Under the pieces are notes generated by a model. It searched no databases. It was not told where the DNA came from and saw nothing but the letters and a program-made list of their open reading frames with translations. A program made the translations under genes and the position numbers. Shown here piece after piece: positions 6,718-15,171 of a stretch of 46,470 nt of DNA (positions are counted from its first letter, which is position 1; each line of letters begins with the position of its first letter). This DNA is from a virus: positions 1-46,470 of IMG/VR virus record IMGVR_UViG_3300029309_000071, one strand, 5' to 3'.

Positions 6718-8904
6718 TCAACTTGAAGGGGTAATTGCTCTATTCGTACCAGAGAATTCACTTTCCCCTGCAACCGGCACATTTCCGATTCCGATGTTGC
6801 CACCACCAGTCCCTGTAGGTCCAAGGTCTTGAGGTTTTGCAGGTGTTCCAGTAAGGCTTCCCATAGGACCTTGTCCTTCACCAGCAAGTTCAGCTTCCGA
6901 GCTAACGTTTTGTCCAGCATTTTGCATTCCTATTATTTGTGCCATCATAGCTGCTTCTTCAGGGTCATTCAGAATTTCATCTGGGTCTAAATCCAAGCTA
7001 TAGGCAAGTTCACTAACCAATTTAGAAATCTTAACAAAAGGAGCAATAGCTGGACTTTGTGCAGTTTGTAAGAACATAGTAAGTCTTTGACTTCTGACTT
7101 CTTTTTGCATCAAGCTATTAGTACCCGTTGCTTTAACTTCTAAATCACCTTTCACATCTAACGAGCCTTCAAAGAACTGCATGTTCCATTGAAAGAAAGC
7201 CTCGCCTAATGGTCTTAATAAAAAGTCATCTAAGTTTTTAACGACTGTTTTAATATTTAAACTAGAAGCACCTAGTAACATTGACATACCAGAAGCAGTC
7301 CTTGTCATACTTTGCACACCAGTTTGACCATGTGAATATGATGGTATACCGGTCTGTTCGTCAGCAAGTTGTCTAAACTTATCGAACATCATCATATTCT
7401 CTGGAGCAGTGTTTGGAAACTTTAAACCATGTATGGCTTGTCCCGGCATTCCAGCTTGTCGCCTGAATATTTTACCCGGATATATTTCCATAGACTGTCC
7501 GCCAACTAAAGCTGATTCATCTACATCAAAGACGAGAGAACCAGCCATCGCTAGATTATCAACAGCCATCCTTGCATGACCATTCATAATCTGTTGAGAA
7601 TCATCCATGTTTTCTGCTACTCCAATACCAAAGAAATTATATGGATTTCTTTCATAAGGAAAAGCATGATAAGGTATTCTGTATGGAGTAAATGGGTTTA
7701 TTACAGCTCTTAAGAGTTGATTACCACAAATCCATGCATTAATTTGCACCTCATCTAAATCATCTATACTATCATCTAACTCAATACCAACTTCTCTGGC
7801 ATACTCGGCATCCATAATACCCCAGTACTCCATGACTTCAAAGTTAGTTTGGTAGTCATCTTGTCTAGCATCATCTTTTAATTGACTTTCAAAATCTTTT
7901 TCTTCGTAGTTAGGACCTTCCATTAAACATGCTCTAATAGCATCTTCATCAAAGTAAGGCATATTACGAAGTTGTCTTAATTGTGATTTGTTCATTTTAT
8001 GTCTATGAACAATGTATTCACATTCTTCTATGCTAGTAGCTGAAGGGTCTGGATAAAAGTCCCAGCAACTAACAAATTCTATTCTTGGTACTCTAACTTC
8101 TAAAGGATTATAAGTTCTTTCACCCTCATCTGACATGTCCCATTTATTAAGTTTTTTATTAAAGTTAAAAGGACCTTTAACGATACCGGTACCTAATAAA
8201 GCAGATTCTAATAAAGAACTTCTTATTTCTGATGAACCTTTAGATTCATCTATTTGGTCATGGATAAGTTTTTCCATTCTTCTCGCAGCTTTCTGAGCTG
8301 GTGAGATTTCTAAAACTTGTGGGTTTGGATTATAACCTTCAACTAAGTTATCTTCTACTTGGTCTTCTAAAGACTCGCTGAACATACCTTTACCAAAAGT
8401 AGCTCCAGCTTTTAAAACTTTTCCATCACCTTCATAACCAACATCATAAGGTTTATCTATTCTATTTCCAATATCATCAGGGATAGAAGTTTCAAGACCA
8501 ACAGAAGGATTATTAATATCTAAATGAGCTGCATCTAACTCACCTTCTGGTACTTTAGTTTCTTGAATACCAATAGGAAATTTACCTGTGCCAAAAATAA
8601 CATCAACTAATTGTCCATAAGCAGCTAGAACTTTAGTTTTAGTAATTTTAACAAAGATACGAGATTTTTCTGAATCTCTAAACTTGACTGATTTACTATA
8701 AAGACCTCGATAGTTTTCGTAAGCTTTAAGCCATCTTCTTTCATCAGTGTTACGAGCATCTTCAGCTTGATAGAAACGACTTTGAATGATACCGACTAAG
8801 TTTTGTTTTTGATTTAATTCTAAATCTAAGGTTTTACCAGCTTCGCCCTCAACATCATTATATAGATTGTTAGCTGTTAAAAATGTATTTTCGTTATCTG
8901 CCAT
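6718..8904 (-). CDS. Portal (head-tail connector) protein
   Basis: The 728-residue product lies directly after terL and upstream of scaffold and capsid, the standard podovirus order. The N-terminal part (YQAEDARNTDERRWLKAYEN, then SRIFVKITKTKVLAAYGQLV) and the central AYPFERNP-like segment (YHAFPYERNPYNFFGIGVAE) are typical of large portal proteins. It would form the dodecameric DNA channel at one capsid vertex and dock the terminase. The C-terminal 60 residues are Gly/Pro/Thr-rich and probably flexible. The gap to terL is only 4 bases. Confidence 0.9.
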   Translation of the reverse strand: MADNENTFLTANNLYNDVEGEAGKTLDLELNQKQNLVGIIQSRFYQAEDARNTDERRWLKAYENYRGLYSKSVKFRDSEKSRIFVKITKTKVLAAYGQLVDVIFGTGKFPIGIQETKVPEGELDAAHLDINNPSVGLETSIPDDIGNRIDKPYDVGYEGDGKVLKAGATFGKGMFSESLEDQVEDNLVEGYNPNPQVLEISPAQKAARRMEKLIHDQIDESKGSSEIRSSLLESALLGTGIVKGPFNFNKKLNKWDMSDEGERTYNPLEVRVPRIEFVSCWDFYPDPSATSIEECEYIVHRHKMNKSQLRQLRNMPYFDEDAIRACLMEGPNYEEKDFESQLKDDARQDDYQTNFEVMEYWGIMDAEYAREVGIELDDSIDDLDEVQINAWICGNQLLRAVINPFTPYRIPYHAFPYERNPYNFFGIGVAENMDDSQQIMNGHARMAVDNLAMAGSLVFDVDESALVGGQSMEIYPGKIFRRQAGMPGQAIHGLKFPNTAPENMMMFDKFRQLADEQTGIPSYSHGQTGVQSMTRTASGMSMLLGASSLNIKTVVKNLDDFLLRPLGEAFFQWNMQFFEGSLDVKGDLEVKATGTNSLMQKEVRSQRLTMFLQTAQSPAIAPFVKISKLVSELAYSLDLDPDEILNDPEEAAMMAQIIGMQNAGQNVSSEAELAGEGQGPMGSLTGTPAKPQDLGPTGTGGGNIGIGNVPVAGESEFSGTNRAITPSS

Positions 8905-8908
8905 TTAT

Positions 8909-10684
8909 TTAATATCCAAAAGTAGAATCAGAAGGTTGATGCATTTCTTTTTTAAGACCTCTAATTCTTTCTAATGGGCTGTCCACTCTTGGACGACTCA
9001 TTATCATATACCGCAAAGCATCGTATGCGTGGTCAGAGGCATGGGTATCTACATCCTCTGGGTTGGTTTTTGATAGTGGTATACTTTGTAACTCTCGTAT
9101 TAAATTTGGGCAAGTGTTAAATATTTGCAGTTTTGGTCTACCGTTTTCTCTAACCTTTAGGAACTCGTGTATTTGAATTTTACCTTGAATCCTATTCTTA
9201 TCAGCTCGTCTTAATTTATGACCAGCTCTAATTAAAGCTTCCCCGACAGTGGGACCAGTAGTACCTGTTCTAGCCCATGCTGCTGTATCTAACACACCTG
9301 AGACCGAAAAAGGGTCTTCAAGCTCCATATTTCCTATTATAGCTCCTAATTCTTCTCCTGTCAAGCCTTTACGGTATAATTCACGGTATATTATGAGGGT
9401 GCCATCATTCATGTCTATAGCTCCCCACAGGCAGCAGGATTCAGATGCATAACCATAGTCAATACCTTTAACTCTTTCCCAGTGTACTGGAATCTGAAAT
9501 GGAGTTACTATATGTTTAGTATTATCAAATTCAACAAAAGCTGCACCTTCGGCAACTTCCCAGTTTCCTTCTAATAGTTGTCTTCTTTGGATAGGCGGTA
9601 AAGACTTTAGCATTTGTTCATAAACACCATCTTTAGCTAAATAAGGGTTATCTTGTAATTTAGCAGGAATAAATTTTCTAGTTAAACCATCTGTACCTAA
9701 AAAAGAGTTATTAGCTTCGTGTGGTTCTATATATCTCTTTTTAACCCAACTAGCACCAGCTCCTCCGGGGTTAGCAGTGCAACGTAGATAAGTCTTTATT
9801 TCAGGGTCAGTAGTTCTTAGACGAGATGCTAGGTAATTCCAACTAAACTCAGTAGGGAGATGTGTGATTTCATCAAAGCCAATCCAAGAATAAGCTTGAC
9901 CTTGGTATCGGTACACATCAGCATCTCGTTCCAAGAAACCAAATTCTATTTTAGCACCACTAGGAAAATTCCACAACTTTTCTACTTCTCTAAACTTAGC
10001 ACCCGGGAATGCTTGTGGATAAAGTTCCCGAGACTTGTCTATCATTTCTCTAAGTTCCGGCATAGACCTCCTAAGTATTAAAGCTCTATGGGCTTTTTTA
10101 TGAGCATACCTTAAGGGGTCAACTAACATAGCATAAGATTTACCACCACCTGCTGCACCACCATAAAGCACATCTTTTTCATCGGCAGCTAAGAAATCTG
10201 TTTGTGGTCCTTCATTAGCTGAAAAGATTACTTTAGCATCTTTAAGTTGTGCTTGAACATCAACTGGCACTTCTGCTAGTTCTGTTTCAGTAACAACATG
10301 CGAAGTAGTCTGCTCAGTAGCTTTTTTCATAACTTGCTCTTGAGCTTTAACCGCTTGTTCTTTTTTATAAAGGGATTTTTTTTGTCGAGCTAGTTTGCGT
10401 TTTTTAGCCGCTATTTTCTTTTTATGTTGTTCGGCTAGAGAAGGGTCAGAGTCTAAATAGTTCTTTAAAGTAACATGAGAAACACTACGACCTGCTTCTT
10501 GGGTAATAAGTTTAGCTGCTTCTCGTAGAGAATACTTTTGTTCCGTAACACCTTTTAGGTATTTCTGTAGAGCTTCTAGTTCTTTGGGAATGGGTTTGAG
10601 ATAACCCTCAATGTCACTAAGTTCATAACCAAAAGGAATGGTATGACTTTTTTTAGGTAAATAATCTGCTGGTATTTTTGTCAT
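8909..10684 (-). CDS. terL: Terminase large subunit
   Basis: The 591-residue DNA-packaging motor has a Walker A motif GGAAGGGKS (residues 175-183) and a Walker B motif IGFDEITH with D271 and E272. Its C-terminal nuclease domain contains GIDYG with D409, a later GVLDTAAW, and a final Asp-rich segment HASDHAYDALRYM. It couples ATP hydrolysis to DNA translocation through the portal and cuts the concatemer. The first 150 residues are an extra domain: a helix-turn-helix-like segment (YSLREAAKLITQEAGRSVSH) followed by a very basic helical stretch (KKKIAAKKRKLARQKKSLYK). This extension could bind DNA or the small subunit. Confidence 0.95.
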   Translation of the reverse strand: MTKIPADYLPKKSHTIPFGYELSDIEGYLKPIPKELEALQKYLKGVTEQKYSLREAAKLITQEAGRSVSHVTLKNYLDSDPSLAEQHKKKIAAKKRKLARQKKSLYKKEQAVKAQEQVMKKATEQTTSHVVTETELAEVPVDVQAQLKDAKVIFSANEGPQTDFLAADEKDVLYGGAAGGGKSYAMLVDPLRYAHKKAHRALILRRSMPELREMIDKSRELYPQAFPGAKFREVEKLWNFPSGAKIEFGFLERDADVYRYQGQAYSWIGFDEITHLPTEFSWNYLASRLRTTDPEIKTYLRCTANPGGAGASWVKKRYIEPHEANNSFLGTDGLTRKFIPAKLQDNPYLAKDGVYEQMLKSLPPIQRRQLLEGNWEVAEGAAFVEFDNTKHIVTPFQIPVHWERVKGIDYGYASESCCLWGAIDMNDGTLIIYRELYRKGLTGEELGAIIGNMELEDPFSVSGVLDTAAWARTGTTGPTVGEALIRAGHKLRRADKNRIQGKIQIHEFLKVRENGRPKLQIFNTCPNLIRELQSIPLSKTNPEDVDTHASDHAYDALRYMIMSRPRVDSPLERIRGLKKEMHQPSDSTFGY

Positions 10685-10747
10685 AACTAAAGCTGGACTT
10701 TCCAGATATTAAGATGGAAAAACATCCGGAAAGCCTCTTACGCTGAC

Positions 10748-10909
10748 TCAGTCTTTCGACTTCGTACTTTGATTAAAAATAGCATCCCAGTTTTTAGCAA
10801 ACTGTACTTTGTCTGGAATAGGTCTAGGTCTAGAACCTTTACCTACTCGACCACCATTTTTTTTGTTAGTCATTAAAATTGGTTTTTCGTTGCTACCTAG
10901 TTGAGACAT
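10748..10909 (-). CDS. Small basic hypothetical protein upstream of terL
   Basis: A 53-codon frame runs from ATG 10909 to a TGA at 10748. The product begins MSQLGSNEKPILMTNKKNGG and contains RPRPIPDKVQFAKNWDAIFN, a pattern of the kind seen in small marine-phage proteins. The start lies one base after the stop of the upstream gene. The ribosome site is weak, so an internal start at residue 13 is possible. Function is unknown. Confidence 0.6.
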   Translation of the reverse strand: MSQLGSNEKPILMTNKKNGGRVGKGSRPRPIPDKVQFAKNWDAIFNQSTKSKD

Positions 10910-10910
10910 T

Positions 10911-11198
10911 TTACCATTTAACTTTGTCAGCCCAATAAGCTGCGGACATTTTACCTTTGTTAATATTTTTTCTATGACGAGCTTTAAAAGACTTACGTTT
11001 AGCTGTCATCTTAGCTGATTCACCTTCTTTTCTTTTACCTGCAGTCTTAGCACCTTGTTGACCAAAACGAATAGTTTTAATTTTATCGCCTTCTTTAGCT
11101 ACTACGATATGTGATTTCTTAGGATGATTAGGAGTTCTTTTAGGTTTATTAAAACCACTAACTCCGGCTCGGGCTAATCTAGGGTCTTGCTTACTCAT
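10911..11198 (-). CDS. Small very basic conserved phage protein
   Basis: This 95-residue protein begins MSKQDPRLARAGVSGFNKPK and contains PNHPKKSHIVVAKEGDKIKT and a C-terminal MSAAYWADKVKW. I recall close relatives in many marine phages and a few giant viruses, always without known function. Net charge is strongly positive. Together with the three upstream genes it makes a cassette of tiny basic proteins between terS and terL, which suggests a part in packaging or in the packaged nucleoid. Confidence 0.75.
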   Translation of the reverse strand: MSKQDPRLARAGVSGFNKPKRTPNHPKKSHIVVAKEGDKIKTIRFGQQGAKTAGKRKEGESAKMTAKRKSFKARHRKNINKGKMSAAYWADKVKW

Positions 11199-11446
11199 TA
11201 GGATGTTTTTCTATAACTTCTAGTTTTTCTAGCTATTTTTTTAGGTTGTTTAGAATGTTGTTTACCTTTTTTAGTATCTTTACGTTTTTTTCTAGAAGTA
11301 GCTGCATACTCTGCTGGGGTTAAAGCTGCAATAGCAGCTGAAGGTAGATAACGTTCACCTGTTTCACTAGACTTTTTACCTGATTTAGTTCGCCACTTCT
11401 GTTTAGTCCAATTTCTAAGACTTCTTTGTGACTTTTTTAGTGCCAT
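11198..11446 (-). CDS. Small very basic conserved phage protein
   Basis: The 82-residue product starts MALKKSQRSLRNWTKQKWRT and continues with KSGKKSSETGERYLPSAAIA. Its C-terminal half is mostly Lys and Arg. The pattern (a W-T-K-Q-K-W motif, then GERYLP) is one I recognise from marine phage proteins of unknown function. It overlaps the downstream start by one base and the upstream gene by 32 bases, showing tight translational coupling. Confidence 0.75.
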   Translation of the reverse strand: MALKKSQRSLRNWTKQKWRTKSGKKSSETGERYLPSAAIAALTPAEYAATSRKKRKDTKKGKQHSKQPKKIARKTRSYRKTS

Positions 11447-11723
11447 GTTTCTTCCTTATTGCTACTTTGCCTTGCTGGGCGATTTTCGCCTGTTGCGTTT
11501 TACCGGCAACTTTCGCCCTTTGTTCGAGGACCGTGAGGATTTGGATTTTTCTTGCGAAGGGTTTGTTAATTTTTTTAACTTTTGCCACAGTTCTTCGAGC
11601 ATCTGCTGGGGTTTTAAAAGCAATACTGACAGTATCTTTGGGGTTTTCATCTGTATATAATCTCCTGCTACTTCCTTTAGGTTTTTTACCCGTGCCAACT
11701 TTCGGGTCTCTTTTTTTTGGCAT
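11415..11723 (-). CDS. Small very basic conserved phage protein
   Basis: The product has 102 residues and starts MPKKRDPKVGTGKKPKGSSR, followed by RLYTDENPKDTVSIAFKTPA. The conserved-looking middle (ADARRTVAKVKKINKPFARK) is helical and basic. It belongs to the same cassette of Lys-rich proteins next to terS. No catalytic motif is visible. Its function is unknown; DNA binding is an inference from charge. Confidence 0.75.
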   Translation of the reverse strand: MPKKRDPKVGTGKKPKGSSRRLYTDENPKDTVSIAFKTPADARRTVAKVKKINKPFARKIQILTVLEQRAKVAGKTQQAKIAQQGKVAIRKKHGTKKVTKKS

Positions 11724-11908
11724 TATTTATAACCACCACCTTTAGCTTTATACTGCTTAGCTAACATCTGAGCCTTTCGAGCTGACCACTGACCGGGCTT
11801 ACCCCCTTTAGAACCAGCTTTAATCCTATTAAAAAGATTTTTACGCATAGTAGGCTTAGTATAGTTACCAGCTTTATTAACTGTGGACTTACGTTTCTTG
11901 GTTGTCAT
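11723..11908 (-). CDS. Small very basic conserved phage protein
   Basis: This 61-residue protein carries NKAGNYTKPTMRKNLFNRIK and ends in GKPGQWSARKAQMLAKQYKA plus a Gly-rich tail. Proteins with this G-N-Y-T-K-P and P-G-Q-W-S-A-R-K pattern are familiar from marine phages but have no assigned function as far as I know. It overlaps terS by 20 bases and the next gene by one base, so it is translated with the terminase genes. Confidence 0.75.
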   Translation of the reverse strand: MTTKKRKSTVNKAGNYTKPTMRKNLFNRIKAGSKGGKPGQWSARKAQMLAKQYKAKGGGYK

Positions 11909-12293
11909 ATTCTACATCTATAGTTTGTTTTTCAGGCAGAATAAAAATCCCACCTTGCACATTATGGTTGACATCTACTCGTTCTGTTTTACCTAAACCG
12001 ACTCTATCAAGCACTGTTTGAGCAGCTTGAAGCTTGACACTGGCTTGAGGTATTGCATCTGCAGCTGACATGACTTCAACGAGCTTAAAAGCTGCTTTAG
12101 GTGCTTCCCTTGCTAGTACATTCGAGGCTAATTCGACTATTTCTTCTTTTAAACTCTTTATAACTTGGTAGTGATTTCCTGAGTACCCGGCAAGTTCGGC
12201 AGATAGTTTTAAATCTCCTTGGGTTGTAAGGATATTATCTAAAAATAATTGCTGTTTATCGGTTAATTTTCTTACTGTAGGTAAACTACTCAT
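11889..12293 (-). CDS. terS: Terminase small subunit
   Basis: The 134-residue protein opens MSSLPTVRKLTDKQQLFLDN and continues with GDLKLSAELAGYSGNHYQVI, the helix-turn-helix arrangement of small terminase proteins that recognise the packaging site. A helical oligomerisation segment follows (about residues 50-100), then a short beta tail (GGIFILPEKQTIDVEY). It is the first gene of the late minus-strand block, with terL downstream after the basic cassette. The -10 box of a strong promoter ends only 7 bases before its ATG, so its mRNA may be leaderless. Confidence 0.8.
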   Translation of the reverse strand: MSSLPTVRKLTDKQQLFLDNILTTQGDLKLSAELAGYSGNHYQVIKSLKEEIVELASNVLAREAPKAAFKLVEVMSAADAIPQASVKLQAAQTVLDRVGLGKTERVDVNHNVQGGIFILPEKQTIDVEYDNQET

Positions 12294-12300
12294 ACATCTT

Positions 12301-12328
12301 ATTATAAAGTTTGTCAGGCTTTTGTCAA
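12301..12328 (-). promoter_or_regulatory. Consensus sigma70 promoter for the late (terS) block
   Basis: On the minus strand, TTGACA (12328-12323) and TATAAT (12306-12301) are both perfect and are spaced by 16 bases. The expected start of transcription is about 12294-12295, one or two bases before the terS ATG at 12293. This would leave essentially no 5' leader and no ribosome site. Confidence 0.8.
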
Positions 12329-12361
12329 GTTTTGTGATAAAATACCTAAAGACTTGACAAA
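12321..12361. promoter_or_regulatory. Inverted repeat overlapping both divergent -35 boxes
   Basis: TTTGTCAAGT (12321-12330) and ACTTGACAAA (12352-12361) are perfect 10-base inverted repeats. Each arm contains the -35 hexamer of one of the two divergent promoters, so one symmetrical protein could control both. The symmetry partly follows from having two identical -35 boxes, but it extends two bases either side of them. Confidence 0.55.
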
Positions 12362-12382
12362 GTGCTAATCTGGGTGTATAAT
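12354..12382 (+). promoter_or_regulatory. Perfect consensus sigma70 promoter firing rightwards into the origin region
   Basis: TTGACA (12354-12359), 17 bases, then TATAAT (12377-12382) is an exact consensus promoter on the plus strand. Downstream there is no open frame for at least 650 bases. Its transcript would cover the iteron and DnaA-box region and then run antisense to the four minus-strand cassettes. Confidence 0.8.
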
Positions 12383-12615
12383 GACATTGTAGGTCGCCCG
12401 GGTTGAATAGTAAGAAACCAAGAACAACACTTGCTAGACTAAATAGAACTAGATAGACCTGTATAGACCTGTGTAGCCGAGCAGTGTAGGGGGTCTAGCC
12501 TCTGTCTTAACACTGTAAAACCTGTAAAAATGTAGAAGCACTATATATATACCCGGCACCCCCCTGTCGCCTCCTGCCTCCCCCATAAACAAAGGGATAC
12601 AGAAGACCTACAAAG

Positions 12616-12780
12616 ACTTCACAAGCTAAAAAGACCTCAAAAGCCACCATTTCACAAGCTTTTTAGGCTTCAAAGGTCTTCAAAGTGCCATAAAGTAAGA
12701 CTTTACAAGCCTACAGAGGCACTGAAGAGCCTTTAAATTAATCTATAACAACCTCAAAGAACTTCACAGAACTTCACAAA
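12616..12780 (+). repeat. Iteron-like repeats, consensus ACTTCACAAGCT
   Basis: Imperfect 10- to 12-base copies occur at 12616 (ACTTCACAAGCT), 12649 (ATTTCACAAGCT), 12700 (ACTTTACAAGCC), 12761 (ACTTCACAGA) and 12771 (ACTTCACAAA). All are in the same orientation. Short same-direction repeats beside DnaA boxes are typical of replication origins that bind an initiator, although no initiator gene is recognised here. Confidence 0.5.
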
Positions 12781-12916
12781 CTCAACAAAACTAGTAAGGG
12801 GTAACCCTAGGCTTAAAGCATTTCAGAGCCTTACAGAGCTTCTGAGGGCTTCGGAGGGCTAGATATTTTGACAAGGTTTAACACTTCAAGGCTTTCAGGA
12901 CTGTTAAGCTTACTGT

Positions 12917-13057
12917 TGTGGATAACTTGTGTATAAGTGTTAGCTAATCTCGGAAGACCTCAATTTTATTCAAAGTCTTTGCTGGTCAACTTTTGAAGGT
13001 CTTTTGAAGTCTTCCGATCTCAGCTGTGGATAAATAATTTTACAGGCTTGTGGATAA
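12917..13057 (+). promoter_or_regulatory. Cluster of four DnaA boxes flanking a stem-loop
   Basis: TGTGGATAA occurs at 12917-12925, 13025-13033 and 13049-13057, and TGTGTATAA at 12928-12936. All four match the DnaA-box consensus (complement TTATNCACA) in the same orientation. Two boxes lie left and two right of an inverted repeat (TCGGAAGAC 12950-12958 / GTCTTCCGA 13009-13017). Four boxes in 141 bases, in the only long gene-free stretch, is unlikely by chance and points to host DnaA binding at the phage origin. Confidence 0.75.
12950..13017. repeat. Long imperfect inverted repeat in the origin
   Basis: The outer arms TCGGAAGACCTCAA and TTGAAGTCTTCCGA pair with a single mismatch. An inner pair, TTCAAAG and CTTTTGAA, can extend the structure. 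The element sits exactly between the two DnaA-box pairs and could form a cruciform or an RNA hairpin. Confidence 0.7.
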
Positions 13058-13073
13058 CTACTAGAACTCGGAC

Positions 13074-13099
13074 AAAAAAAGCCCTCACAGAGGAGGGCT
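13074..13099 (-). terminator. Terminator of the first minus-strand cassette
   Basis: On the minus strand AGCCCTC-CTCTGT-GAGGGCT is followed by TTTTTT. It lies 22 bases past the stop of the 123-residue gene and ends that unit before the DnaA-box region. Confidence 0.85.
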
Positions 13100-13120
13100 A
13101 GAAAGGGGATTATTAAGACT

Positions 13121-13492
13121 TTATGAATAGTGCCACATATCCCATTTATGAGTAATTATTTGCATGTCCTCATCTGTTGGTTTTTCACATCCCTCAAACA
13201 CCAATTCAAGCAACTCATTAAAAATACTTTCTTTTGCTGAGTGGTGAGCAATTTGAAAGCCTCCGGAGGTTTTAATCTTATCAGCTTGAAAATATACCCA
13301 ACCCTTAAAGTCTCTGCCGTCATTGTCAAAGATATGAGACCTAATATTTAAAGCTTCTTTATAAAGATTTTCTAACCCATCAACAAAGGTTATAAAGCTT
13401 TCTTTCTTTGTTGCTGTTCCCTTAAGCATTTCATCTCTTAAGGTAATATTATTTATATATCCGTTATTTATCGTTCTTTCTACTTTATTCAT
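13121..13492 (-). CDS. Hypothetical cassette protein, 123 aa
   Basis: I do not recognise this 123-residue protein. It begins MNKVERTINNGYINNITLRD, has a Lys/Gly middle (GRDFKGWVYFQADKIKTSGG) and ends in a Trp/His-rich segment (ITHKWDMWHYS). No membrane segment or known motif is visible. It is the last of four short minus-strand genes, each with its own terminator and the same leader. A ribosome site AAGGAGT lies 6 bases before the ATG. Such isolated small units near the early region often act on the host, but that is only inference. Confidence 0.75.
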   Translation of the reverse strand: MNKVERTINNGYINNITLRDEMLKGTATKKESFITFVDGLENLYKEALNIRSHIFDNDGRDFKGWVYFQADKIKTSGGFQIAHHSAKESIFNELLELVFEGCEKPTDEDMQIITHKWDMWHYS

Positions 13493-13527
13493 TTTTACTC
13501 CTTTTAAGTAATAGTTAATATGTAAGT

Positions 13528-13556
13528 ATTTAAAACTATTTTCTAGTTAGTGTCAA
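13528..13556 (-). promoter_or_regulatory. Candidate promoter of the 123-aa cassette
   Basis: TTGACA (13556-13551), 17 bases, then TTAAAT (13533-13528) on the minus strand. The -35 box is perfect, and the -10 box matches 4 of 6. It lies between the upstream terminator and the shared leader, as expected for an independent unit. Confidence 0.5.
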
Positions 13557-13562
13557 ATAAAT

Positions 13563-13587
13563 AAAAAAGCCCTCAATTAAGAGGGCT
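13563..13587 (-). terminator. Terminator of the second minus-strand cassette
   Basis: AGCCCTC-TTAATT-GAGGGCT followed by TTTTTATT on the minus strand. The stem is identical to that at 13080-13099 and is preceded by the same 16-base sequence, AGTCTTAATAATCCCC. Confidence 0.85.
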
Positions 13588-13607
13588 ACTTTGGGGATTA
13601 TTAAGAC

Positions 13608-13853
13608 TTATGTCAGAGCCTTTACTTTAAACTCTAAAGCTTCTCTAGTCTCAGCATAGAGTGAAAAATTTGTTACTACTTCCATGTCACCGAACATAGT
13701 ACTATCATCAACACTTCTTCGTTCTCTACAAGTTCCCAGCTCATCATAAGCAATAGATATACTCATTACATAGTACTTCTCGCCATTATCTCTAATGCGT
13801 TCTTTTATCTCGCTTTTTTCGATTTCTTTTACAGTGTGAATATTTAATTCCAT
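13608..13853 (-). CDS. Hypothetical cassette protein, 81 aa
   Basis: The 81-residue protein begins MELNIHTVKEIEKSEIKERI and looks like an alternating strand and helix domain (GEKYYVMSISIAYDELGTCR, then a C-terminal TREALEFKVKALT). No family is recognised. It has its own leader with TAAGGAGTAA and its own terminator. It is the second in the run of single-gene minus-strand cassettes. Confidence 0.75.
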   Translation of the reverse strand: MELNIHTVKEIEKSEIKERIRDNGEKYYVMSISIAYDELGTCRERRSVDDSTMFGDMEVVTNFSLYAETREALEFKVKALT

Positions 13854-13905
13854 TTTTTTTACTCCTTAAATAATAATTAATATATGAGTATTGAAACACA
13901 ACTTA

Positions 13906-13937
13906 TATAAAAAAGAAACCCCCAAATTAATGGGGGC
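13906..13937 (-). terminator. Terminator of the third minus-strand cassette
   Basis: On the minus strand AGCCCCCATTAATTTGGGGG forms a stem of CCCCCA with TGGGGG, followed by TTTCTTTTTTAT. A CCCCAAAGTAG sequence matching the neighbouring terminators precedes it. Confidence 0.8.
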
Positions 13938-13959
13938 TACTTTGGGGATTAGTTAAAGC

Positions 13960-14313
13960 TTAAGATATTTTATTATAAATAGCTTCATTATACCCAATAA
14001 CAAAACCCAGCATTTCCTCTTTACTGTTGAACCTTTTTAGGTCATGTCCGTAATAATGACCTAGAGTAATACTATATTTATTAAAGTATAAGCCTTCACT
14101 AGCTACAGATTTTTTGGTTGCATAGGAATCATAACCATATTTAATAATATTCTTTTCAAACTTTGCACATTGAAAAGCATAATAATATTTATTATCCCCT
14201 CTTAATTGAAAGGTAATATTTTTTTTAGCTTCTTTAAACTCAAGCTCTCTTTCTTTATGAAATCTTTTAGTCATTTTAGCTGAAGCTAATTTAAATACTT
14301 CTAAATTATCCAT
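13960..14313 (-). CDS. Hypothetical cassette protein, 117 aa
   Basis: I do not recognise this 117-residue protein. It opens MDNLEVFKLASAKMTKRFHK and contains ITFQLRGDNKYYYAFQCAKF and a Tyr/His-rich stretch (YSITLGHYYGHDLKRF). It is basic, rich in Lys and Tyr, with no membrane segment. The shared leader (TTAACTATTTAGGAGTAA) precedes it, and a GC-hairpin terminator follows. TATAAT at 14349-14344 on the minus strand could be its -10 box, although the -35 region is weak. Confidence 0.75.
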   Translation of the reverse strand: MDNLEVFKLASAKMTKRFHKERELEFKEAKKNITFQLRGDNKYYYAFQCAKFEKNIIKYGYDSYATKKSVASEGLYFNKYSITLGHYYGHDLKRFNSKEEMLGFVIGYNEAIYNKIS

Positions 14314-14362
14314 TTTTATTTACTCCTAAATAGTTAATAAACTATTATAAACATATTTTTTA

Positions 14363-14392
14363 CTAAAAAGAAACCCCCAAATTAAAGGGGGG
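14363..14392 (-). terminator. Terminator of the fourth minus-strand cassette
   Basis: CCCCCC-TTTAATTT-GGGGG followed by TTTCTTTTTAGT on the minus strand. It lies about 20 bases past the stop of the 81-residue gene at 14415 and resembles the other cassette terminators. Confidence 0.8.
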
Positions 14393-14414
14393 TCTCAAAG
14401 GGGATTATTTAAGT

Positions 14415-14660
14415 TTATTTATCTGAATAAATATAAGCACTCACTAAGCTTTTTTGATTGGCATAGTAAAACTCAACAGCATTGGTCACCCTGTTAGTAA
14501 TATTATAGCCTTGAGTGCTAAGAGTTTTTTTGTCGTTACTCATAAACAAGTTATTGACAAATTGAATAAATCCTAGGTCTTGAAAATCCCTAGGCATAAG
14601 AGCAGAGTTATAACCAAAGTTTTTAACCCAGTAATTTAGTTTAGTATTGGAATTAATCAT
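14415..14660 (-). CDS. Hypothetical cassette protein, 81 aa
   Basis: The 81-residue protein begins MINSNTKLNYWVKNFGYNSA and ends FYYANQKSLVSAYIYSDK. No family is recognised. The C-terminal pattern (ANxKxxVSAYxY) loosely resembles the phrase ANNKMMVSAYSLRW in the 82-residue plus-strand protein at 23959, which hints at a distant relation. It has the shared leader and a candidate promoter with an operator-like palindrome upstream. Confidence 0.7.
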   Translation of the reverse strand: MINSNTKLNYWVKNFGYNSALMPRDFQDLGFIQFVNNLFMSNDKKTLSTQGYNITNRVTNAVEFYYANQKSLVSAYIYSDK

Positions 14661-14692
14661 ATTTATTTACTCCTAAATAGTTAAATTAATAT

Positions 14693-14723
14693 AAAGTCTA
14701 AACAGACTTTTTAAACTTTGCAA
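14693..14723 (-). promoter_or_regulatory. Candidate promoter with overlapping palindromic operator
   Basis: On the minus strand TTGCAA (14723-14718), 17 bases, then TAGACT (14700-14695). A perfect inverted repeat AAAGTCT-AAAC-AGACTTT (14693-14710) covers the -10 box. This would be the promoter of the 81-residue cassette gene and a natural binding site for a dimeric regulator. Confidence 0.45.
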
Positions 14724-15027: not shown

Positions 15028-15171
15028 ATGGAAAAACTAACTGAATACGAATTACTAAAAAGACTTGATAACGAGTTTGCAGATGTAGACTTTAGTGTGC
15101 GAGACTGTGCGACTAAAGGTGTAGTAGCTGTGGTTTATTTTTATGAAGATAAATTTGAGGAGAGTGCATGA
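15028..15171 (+). CDS. Hypothetical early protein, 47 aa
   Basis: ATG 15028 opens a 47-codon gene (MEKLTEYELLKRLDNEFADV at its start) ending in ATGATG, where it overlaps the next gene. A TAAGGAGTAA ribosome site lies 8 bases upstream, within the same leader sequence as the minus-strand cassettes. The product is small and acidic, with no recognised family. It is the first gene of the plus-strand block and so is probably expressed at once after infection. Confidence 0.7.
   Translation: MEKLTEYELLKRLDNEFADVDFSVRDCATKGVVAVVYFYEDKFEESA

Follow-up and report, generated by a model that had tools for sequence, protein, structure and literature searches.

Does the gene-free stretch near position 13,000 of this phage genome hold a replication origin, and does replication there depend on the DnaA protein of the host? 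The original prediction proposed such dependence, from DnaA boxes placed around an inverted repeat next to a set of iterons. The window analysed here (46,470 bases) is most of a virus record of 48,520 bases, and the virus belongs with the marine phages of the HMO-2011/pelagiphage type. Its TerL shares 63-68% identity with that of the pelagiphages HTVC115P, HTVC103P and HTVC104P, and some 40-48% with that of HMO-2011-type phages. On the plus strand we find replication genes for a primase-helicase of phage type, a polymerase of the PolA type and a gp2.5-like SSB, together with genes for an exonuclease and for the two subunits of ribonucleotide reductase; the terminase, portal and tail genes are on the minus strand.

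The gap from 12294 to 13120 is indeed the longest one without a convincing ORF. That it separates the late from the early genes is correct only in part, since four further small minus-strand genes (13121-14660) intervene before the rightward block begins at 15168. Between these small genes, from 13074 to 14700, there are near-repeated terminator/leader units (an A-run, a GC hairpin and GGGGATTATTAAG), and the whole block is replaced or rearranged in relatives; judged by its sequence, it resembles a site at which modules of small genes are exchanged. The features of the gap are the following.

12301-12328, minus strand: predicted sigma-70 promoter TTGACA-16-TATAAT, directed towards terS and the late genes (12/12 hexamer match)
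12354-12382, plus strand: predicted sigma-70 promoter TTGACA-17-TATAAT, directed into the gene-free stretch (12/12 hexamer match)
12390-12409, plus strand: GC-rich element TAGGTCGCCCGGGTTGAATA, just past the point where rightward transcription should begin (recurs, though degenerate, in almost every relative)
12506-12551, no strand assigned: CTTAACACT...AAAATGTAGAAGCACTA followed by the TATATATA tract (nearly all relatives; recognisable in HMO-2011 and CRP-1)
12552-12578, no strand assigned: GC-rich patch with a C- or G-run and a TCCTGCC end (sequence comparison with relatives)
12605-12860, no strand assigned: field of degenerate repeats of 9-12 nt, of the ACTTCA[AC]AAG type (the predicted iterons)
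12878-12908, no strand assigned: hairpin TTAACA...TGTTAA, which closes the conserved region (sequence comparison; the homology with relative L002 ends here)
12909-13073, no strand assigned: DnaA cassette of 165 bp, present or absent as a block
12917-12925, minus strand: DnaA box TTATCCACA (sequence match)
12928-12936, minus strand: DnaA box TTATACACA (sequence match; TTATCCACA in three close relatives)
12942-13025, no strand assigned: inverted repeat with arms at 12942-12963 and 13004-13025
13025-13033, minus strand: DnaA box TTATCCACA (sequence match)
13049-13057, minus strand: DnaA box TTATCCACA (sequence match; degenerate in relative L369)
13074-13099, minus strand: predicted intrinsic terminator of the leftward small-gene block (promoter/terminator sequence scan)

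All four predicted DnaA boxes were located, in one orientation and as two pairs on either side of the inverted repeat. The general DnaA box is TTATCCACA; three of the four read so, one reads TTATACACA, and only two further matches to the pattern TTATNCACA occur in the 46 kb. We compared the cluster with second-order Markov simulations of the window (n = 1500), taking the best cluster per 150 bp. Four boxes in 141 bp are above chance, as the simulated best was 0, 1 or 2 in all 1500 of the 1500 runs. The 22-nt arms of the inverted repeat are 82% complementary, with 40 nt between them, and show one compensatory pair change in L369 (CGGAAGAC/GTCTTCCG to CGAAAGAC/GTCTTTCG). The repeat folds well in the clade of the window, better on the minus strand (z of -7.9 vs -2.4), but not in the more distant L228. 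By inspection, no clear AT-rich stretch adjoins the boxes; the AT tract TATATATA (12543-12551) lies 370 bp away.

Are these boxes likely to be bound by DnaA? The relatives carry the exact tandem pair TGTGGATAACTTGTGGATAA, while the second box of the window has one C-to-A change. A DnaA signature was found within 8 kb of TGTGGATAACTTGTGGATAA at 16 of 117 loci in bacterial genomes and at 0 of 120 control loci, where the controls are viral, hence lenient, and the enriched loci are not independent. Since the tandem pair occurs near bacterial dnaA, real DnaA binding is likely. Neither a dnaA gene nor a DnaA homologue was found in the phage record.

Next, we looked at the conservation of the cassette. 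The conservation of box spacing, which had been proposed as a check, holds in three close relatives, L356 (L231), L369 (G002) and L371 (L229), which keep the spacing of 11/97/24; L356 and L371 have all four boxes and L369 a degenerate fourth one. On the other hand, the cassette is absent from most relatives. In the clade with at least 92% TerS identity, it is carried by 4 of the 12 members with enough sequence, the window included, and lacking in 8 of the 11 others; these counts depend on the contigs that hold the region and include near-duplicates. For example, L002 has a TerL that is 100% identical, and its DNA aligns at 97% from 8001 to 12908, breaks off and resumes at 13848, so that it lacks the boxes and the inverted repeat along with the two small genes that follow. 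In L355 and L366, about a dozen bases join the TTAACA hairpin to the terminator in place of the 165 bp of the window. From these alignments, we take the cassette to be a discrete module that is gained or lost as a block.

Outside the close clade, the distant lineage L072/L073/L228 (TerL identity 71-74%) carries a pair of boxes at the corresponding position, at a distance of 96 bp from each other, and the cassette spacer of L228 is significantly similar to that of the window's clade (z about 6; 0/500 shuffles). No DnaA boxes were seen at this region in about 50 other relatives, and the cassette is lacking in the HMO-2011-type isolates and in the pelagiphages HTVC103P, HTVC104P and HTVC115P. Whole-record scans of 12 complete or near-complete relatives found no substitute cluster elsewhere. 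A scan for two boxes 82-112 bp apart returned mostly unrelated phages among the matches listed. Since most relatives are without a box cluster, DnaA cannot be their general route to starting replication, and the proposed dependence on host DnaA is not supported.

The iterons do not fare better. Instead of five copies of ACTTCACAAGCT we find a single exact one (12616); two copies have one mismatch (12649 and 12771), one has two (12700) and the others have three, and the spacing (33, 51, 71) is irregular. Still, the field is real: nine matches with up to three mismatches lie between 12616 and 13048, with about 0.6 expected. The relatives retain a repeat field but not the exact repeat sequence. 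With three copies at no more than one mismatch, irregular spacing and no Rep-like replication initiator recognised among the proteins scanned, "repeat field" is a fair label and "iteron array" is not. In L034, L035, L042 and L069, the same region holds repeated perfect palindromes AAACTCTAAAGAGTTT instead of the ACTTCACAAG-type repeats.

The GC skew did not help to place an origin. The cumulative minimum had been expected at the boxes; it lies at about 15.0 kb, where the genes diverge. In the window, in CRP-3 and in HMO-2011 the skew tracks the gene strand, and there is no switch in third-position skew, so we rejected it as an origin marker.

What is conserved is the rest of the gap. The rightward promoter scores 11-12/12 in all 84 relatives, against 4 of 420 shuffles, and the leftward promoter reaches at least 11/12 in 58 of the 84 (1 of 420 shuffles). 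The order of the elements is identical in about 60 relatives. The AT tract and the GC patch can be recognised in HMO-2011, CRP-1, CRP-2, HTVC103P and HTVC115P, and less clearly in HTVC033P and CRP-3, although this recognition was by eye and a strict pattern matched HMO-2011 only. Most of the HMO-2011-type isolates that we looked at show the element. In HMO-2011, CRP-1 and CRP-2, the tract and the GC run are found at the start of the gap at the boundary of leftward and rightward genes. Since terS of HMO-2011 is 8 kb distant from it, the element tracks this boundary and not terS. Taken by its sequence and conservation, 12294-13073 is a conserved control region of this phage group. The paper that describes the HMO-2011 group (PMC9038755) makes no mention of promoters, non-coding regions or origins of replication, and in the literature that we searched we found no description of an origin or of transcription signals for HMO-2011-type phages.

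Two further observations concern the same elements. The run at 12552-12578 is C-rich in the window and G-rich in many relatives, including the 97%-identical L002, with conserved flanks; an R-loop or G-quadruplex primer at this run was rejected, because the run changes strand from one relative to another. In L029 and L082 (HTVC115P), a hairpin that resembles a terminator, with a T-run, is found about 30 to 100 nt past the expected rightward start, which suggests that some relatives make a short transcript or attenuate transcription.

The genome is also without a T7-like phage RNA polymerase, as had been predicted. A search with PF00940 for a single-subunit enzyme matched neither the 48.5-kb record nor any of six relatives, and found the T7 control at 1e-109. 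Thus the phage RNA polymerase on which, together with its promoters, a T7-type primary origin is defined is absent here.

Our best explanation, which we advance tentatively and at slightly under an even chance, is that the gap is a control region with back-to-back promoters, most likely holding the origin, to which an accessory DnaA cassette has been added. The divergent sigma-70 promoters would be the simplest entry points of the host polymerase for late and early transcription. The leftward one would drive terS and the late genes, and the rightward one would direct transcription into a non-coding, repeat-rich stretch of several hundred bases that includes the AT tract and the GC run. After rightward transcription by host RNA polymerase, the replication proteins (the T7-gp4-like primase-helicase, the PolA-type polymerase and the gp2.5-type SSB) could enter by way of the transcript or of the AT tract once it is open. 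A helicase of the T7 type is self-loading and does not need DnaA. A promoter that faces AT-rich gene-free DNA, a self-loading helicase and the lack of a phage RNA polymerase together make an origin started by transcription plausible, and we infer that the region probably contains the replication origin. At its right edge, the cassette would bind host DnaA and either help to open or tune the origin, or sense or titrate DnaA. Against an origin, the rightward promoter may alternatively be a simple early promoter; the rightward genes of HTVC115P begin about 500-600 nt downstream of it.

Among the alternatives, the one that survives best, though we consider it unlikely, is that the cassette serves as a decoy or sensor for host DnaA and plays no part in where phage DNA synthesis starts, its purpose being to disturb initiation in the host or to time phage gene expression. 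This would agree with boxes that are optional, discrete and of a high-affinity type, and with a cassette located at a transcription terminator, 0.5-0.6 kb downstream of a strong promoter. So few boxes would suffice only at a high phage copy number. However, in both of the diverged lineages that have it the cassette invariably lies at one and the same edge of the control region, and its homologous inverted-repeat spacer suggests more than binding sites alone.

We find it improbable that the region is a packaging site, pac or cos, for the small terminase, the gene of which is adjacent. In this subgroup it lies immediately upstream of terS, which would fit, as would its repeats and its GC-rich patch, and the contig ends of relatives are somewhat commoner in the repeat field (equivalents of 12690-13000); the matching element of HMO-2011, however, is far from terS, and the contig ends are scattered, with many contigs running straight through. 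Scattered ends with no common end sequence speak against a fixed cos-type end, and a cos site at the GC patch was rejected since no contig end is shared there. The ends in the repeat field are probably assembly breaks.

Equally doubtful is a long untranslated leader or structured non-coding RNA that starts at the rightward promoter and has no role in replication. In all relatives a perfect promoter faces an ORF-free stretch, and some folds score below shuffles, but the z-scores for the whole region are uneven (about -0.5 to -4) and similar on the other strand, so we did not retain the fold. A stem at 12683-12722 (AGNNCC/GGNNCT, with a conserved GGTAAGACTTAACAAGCATACAGA loop) looked promising in the first six relatives; of 12 close relatives, 7 keep it paired through compensatory changes, yet it is broken in the other 5 and was dropped. 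Rfam gave nothing at the gathering threshold and only chance-level matches below it.

Finally, an origin at which boxes and iterons are initiator sites that the phage needs is the least probable reading of all: the box cluster is genuine and its spacing is kept in part of the clade, but its absence from L002, from most close lineages and from all distant ones but one argues against an essential role, no cluster replaces it in the complete or near-complete relatives scanned, the iterons are not regular and no initiator protein was recognised, so that an essential DnaA-dependent origin is unlikely.

Returning to the control region with an accessory cassette, one could speculate, with rather little confidence, that gain or loss of the cassette toggles a phage whose replisome is T7-like and whose promoters are host-type between an origin started by transcription and an origin at which host DnaA has an added part in opening or timing. 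If this were true, close relatives in the same waters would differ in how tightly their replication is coupled to the cell cycle of the host. Phages of the HMO-2011 type rank among the most common in the ocean. For cultured relatives, the region pinpoints where to seek the origin and the promoters, and the natural matched pairs with and without the cassette permit a direct test of its role. For DnaA-box origins in podoviruses, nothing relevant was found in the literature searched.

How does this region compare with known systems? Bacterial oriC clusters likewise have several TTATCCACA boxes, and the 20-mer pair TGTGGATAACTTGTGGATAA of the relatives stands beside dnaA in bacteria; the phage, on the other hand, has just four boxes around an inverted repeat, dispensable across relatives, and no dnaA gene. 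The primary origin of T7 consists of host and phage promoters followed by an AT-rich tract, and works with gp4, a gp5-type polymerase and gp2.5. Here, too, a promoter precedes AT-rich DNA and the phage encodes a primase-helicase, a PolA-type polymerase and a gp2.5-like SSB, whereas its promoters are of the host sigma-70 type and the phage RNA polymerase is missing. HMO-2011-type phages and HTVC103P, HTVC104P and HTVC115P differ from the window by the DnaA cassette and share with it the gene plan, the promoter and the AT/GC element.
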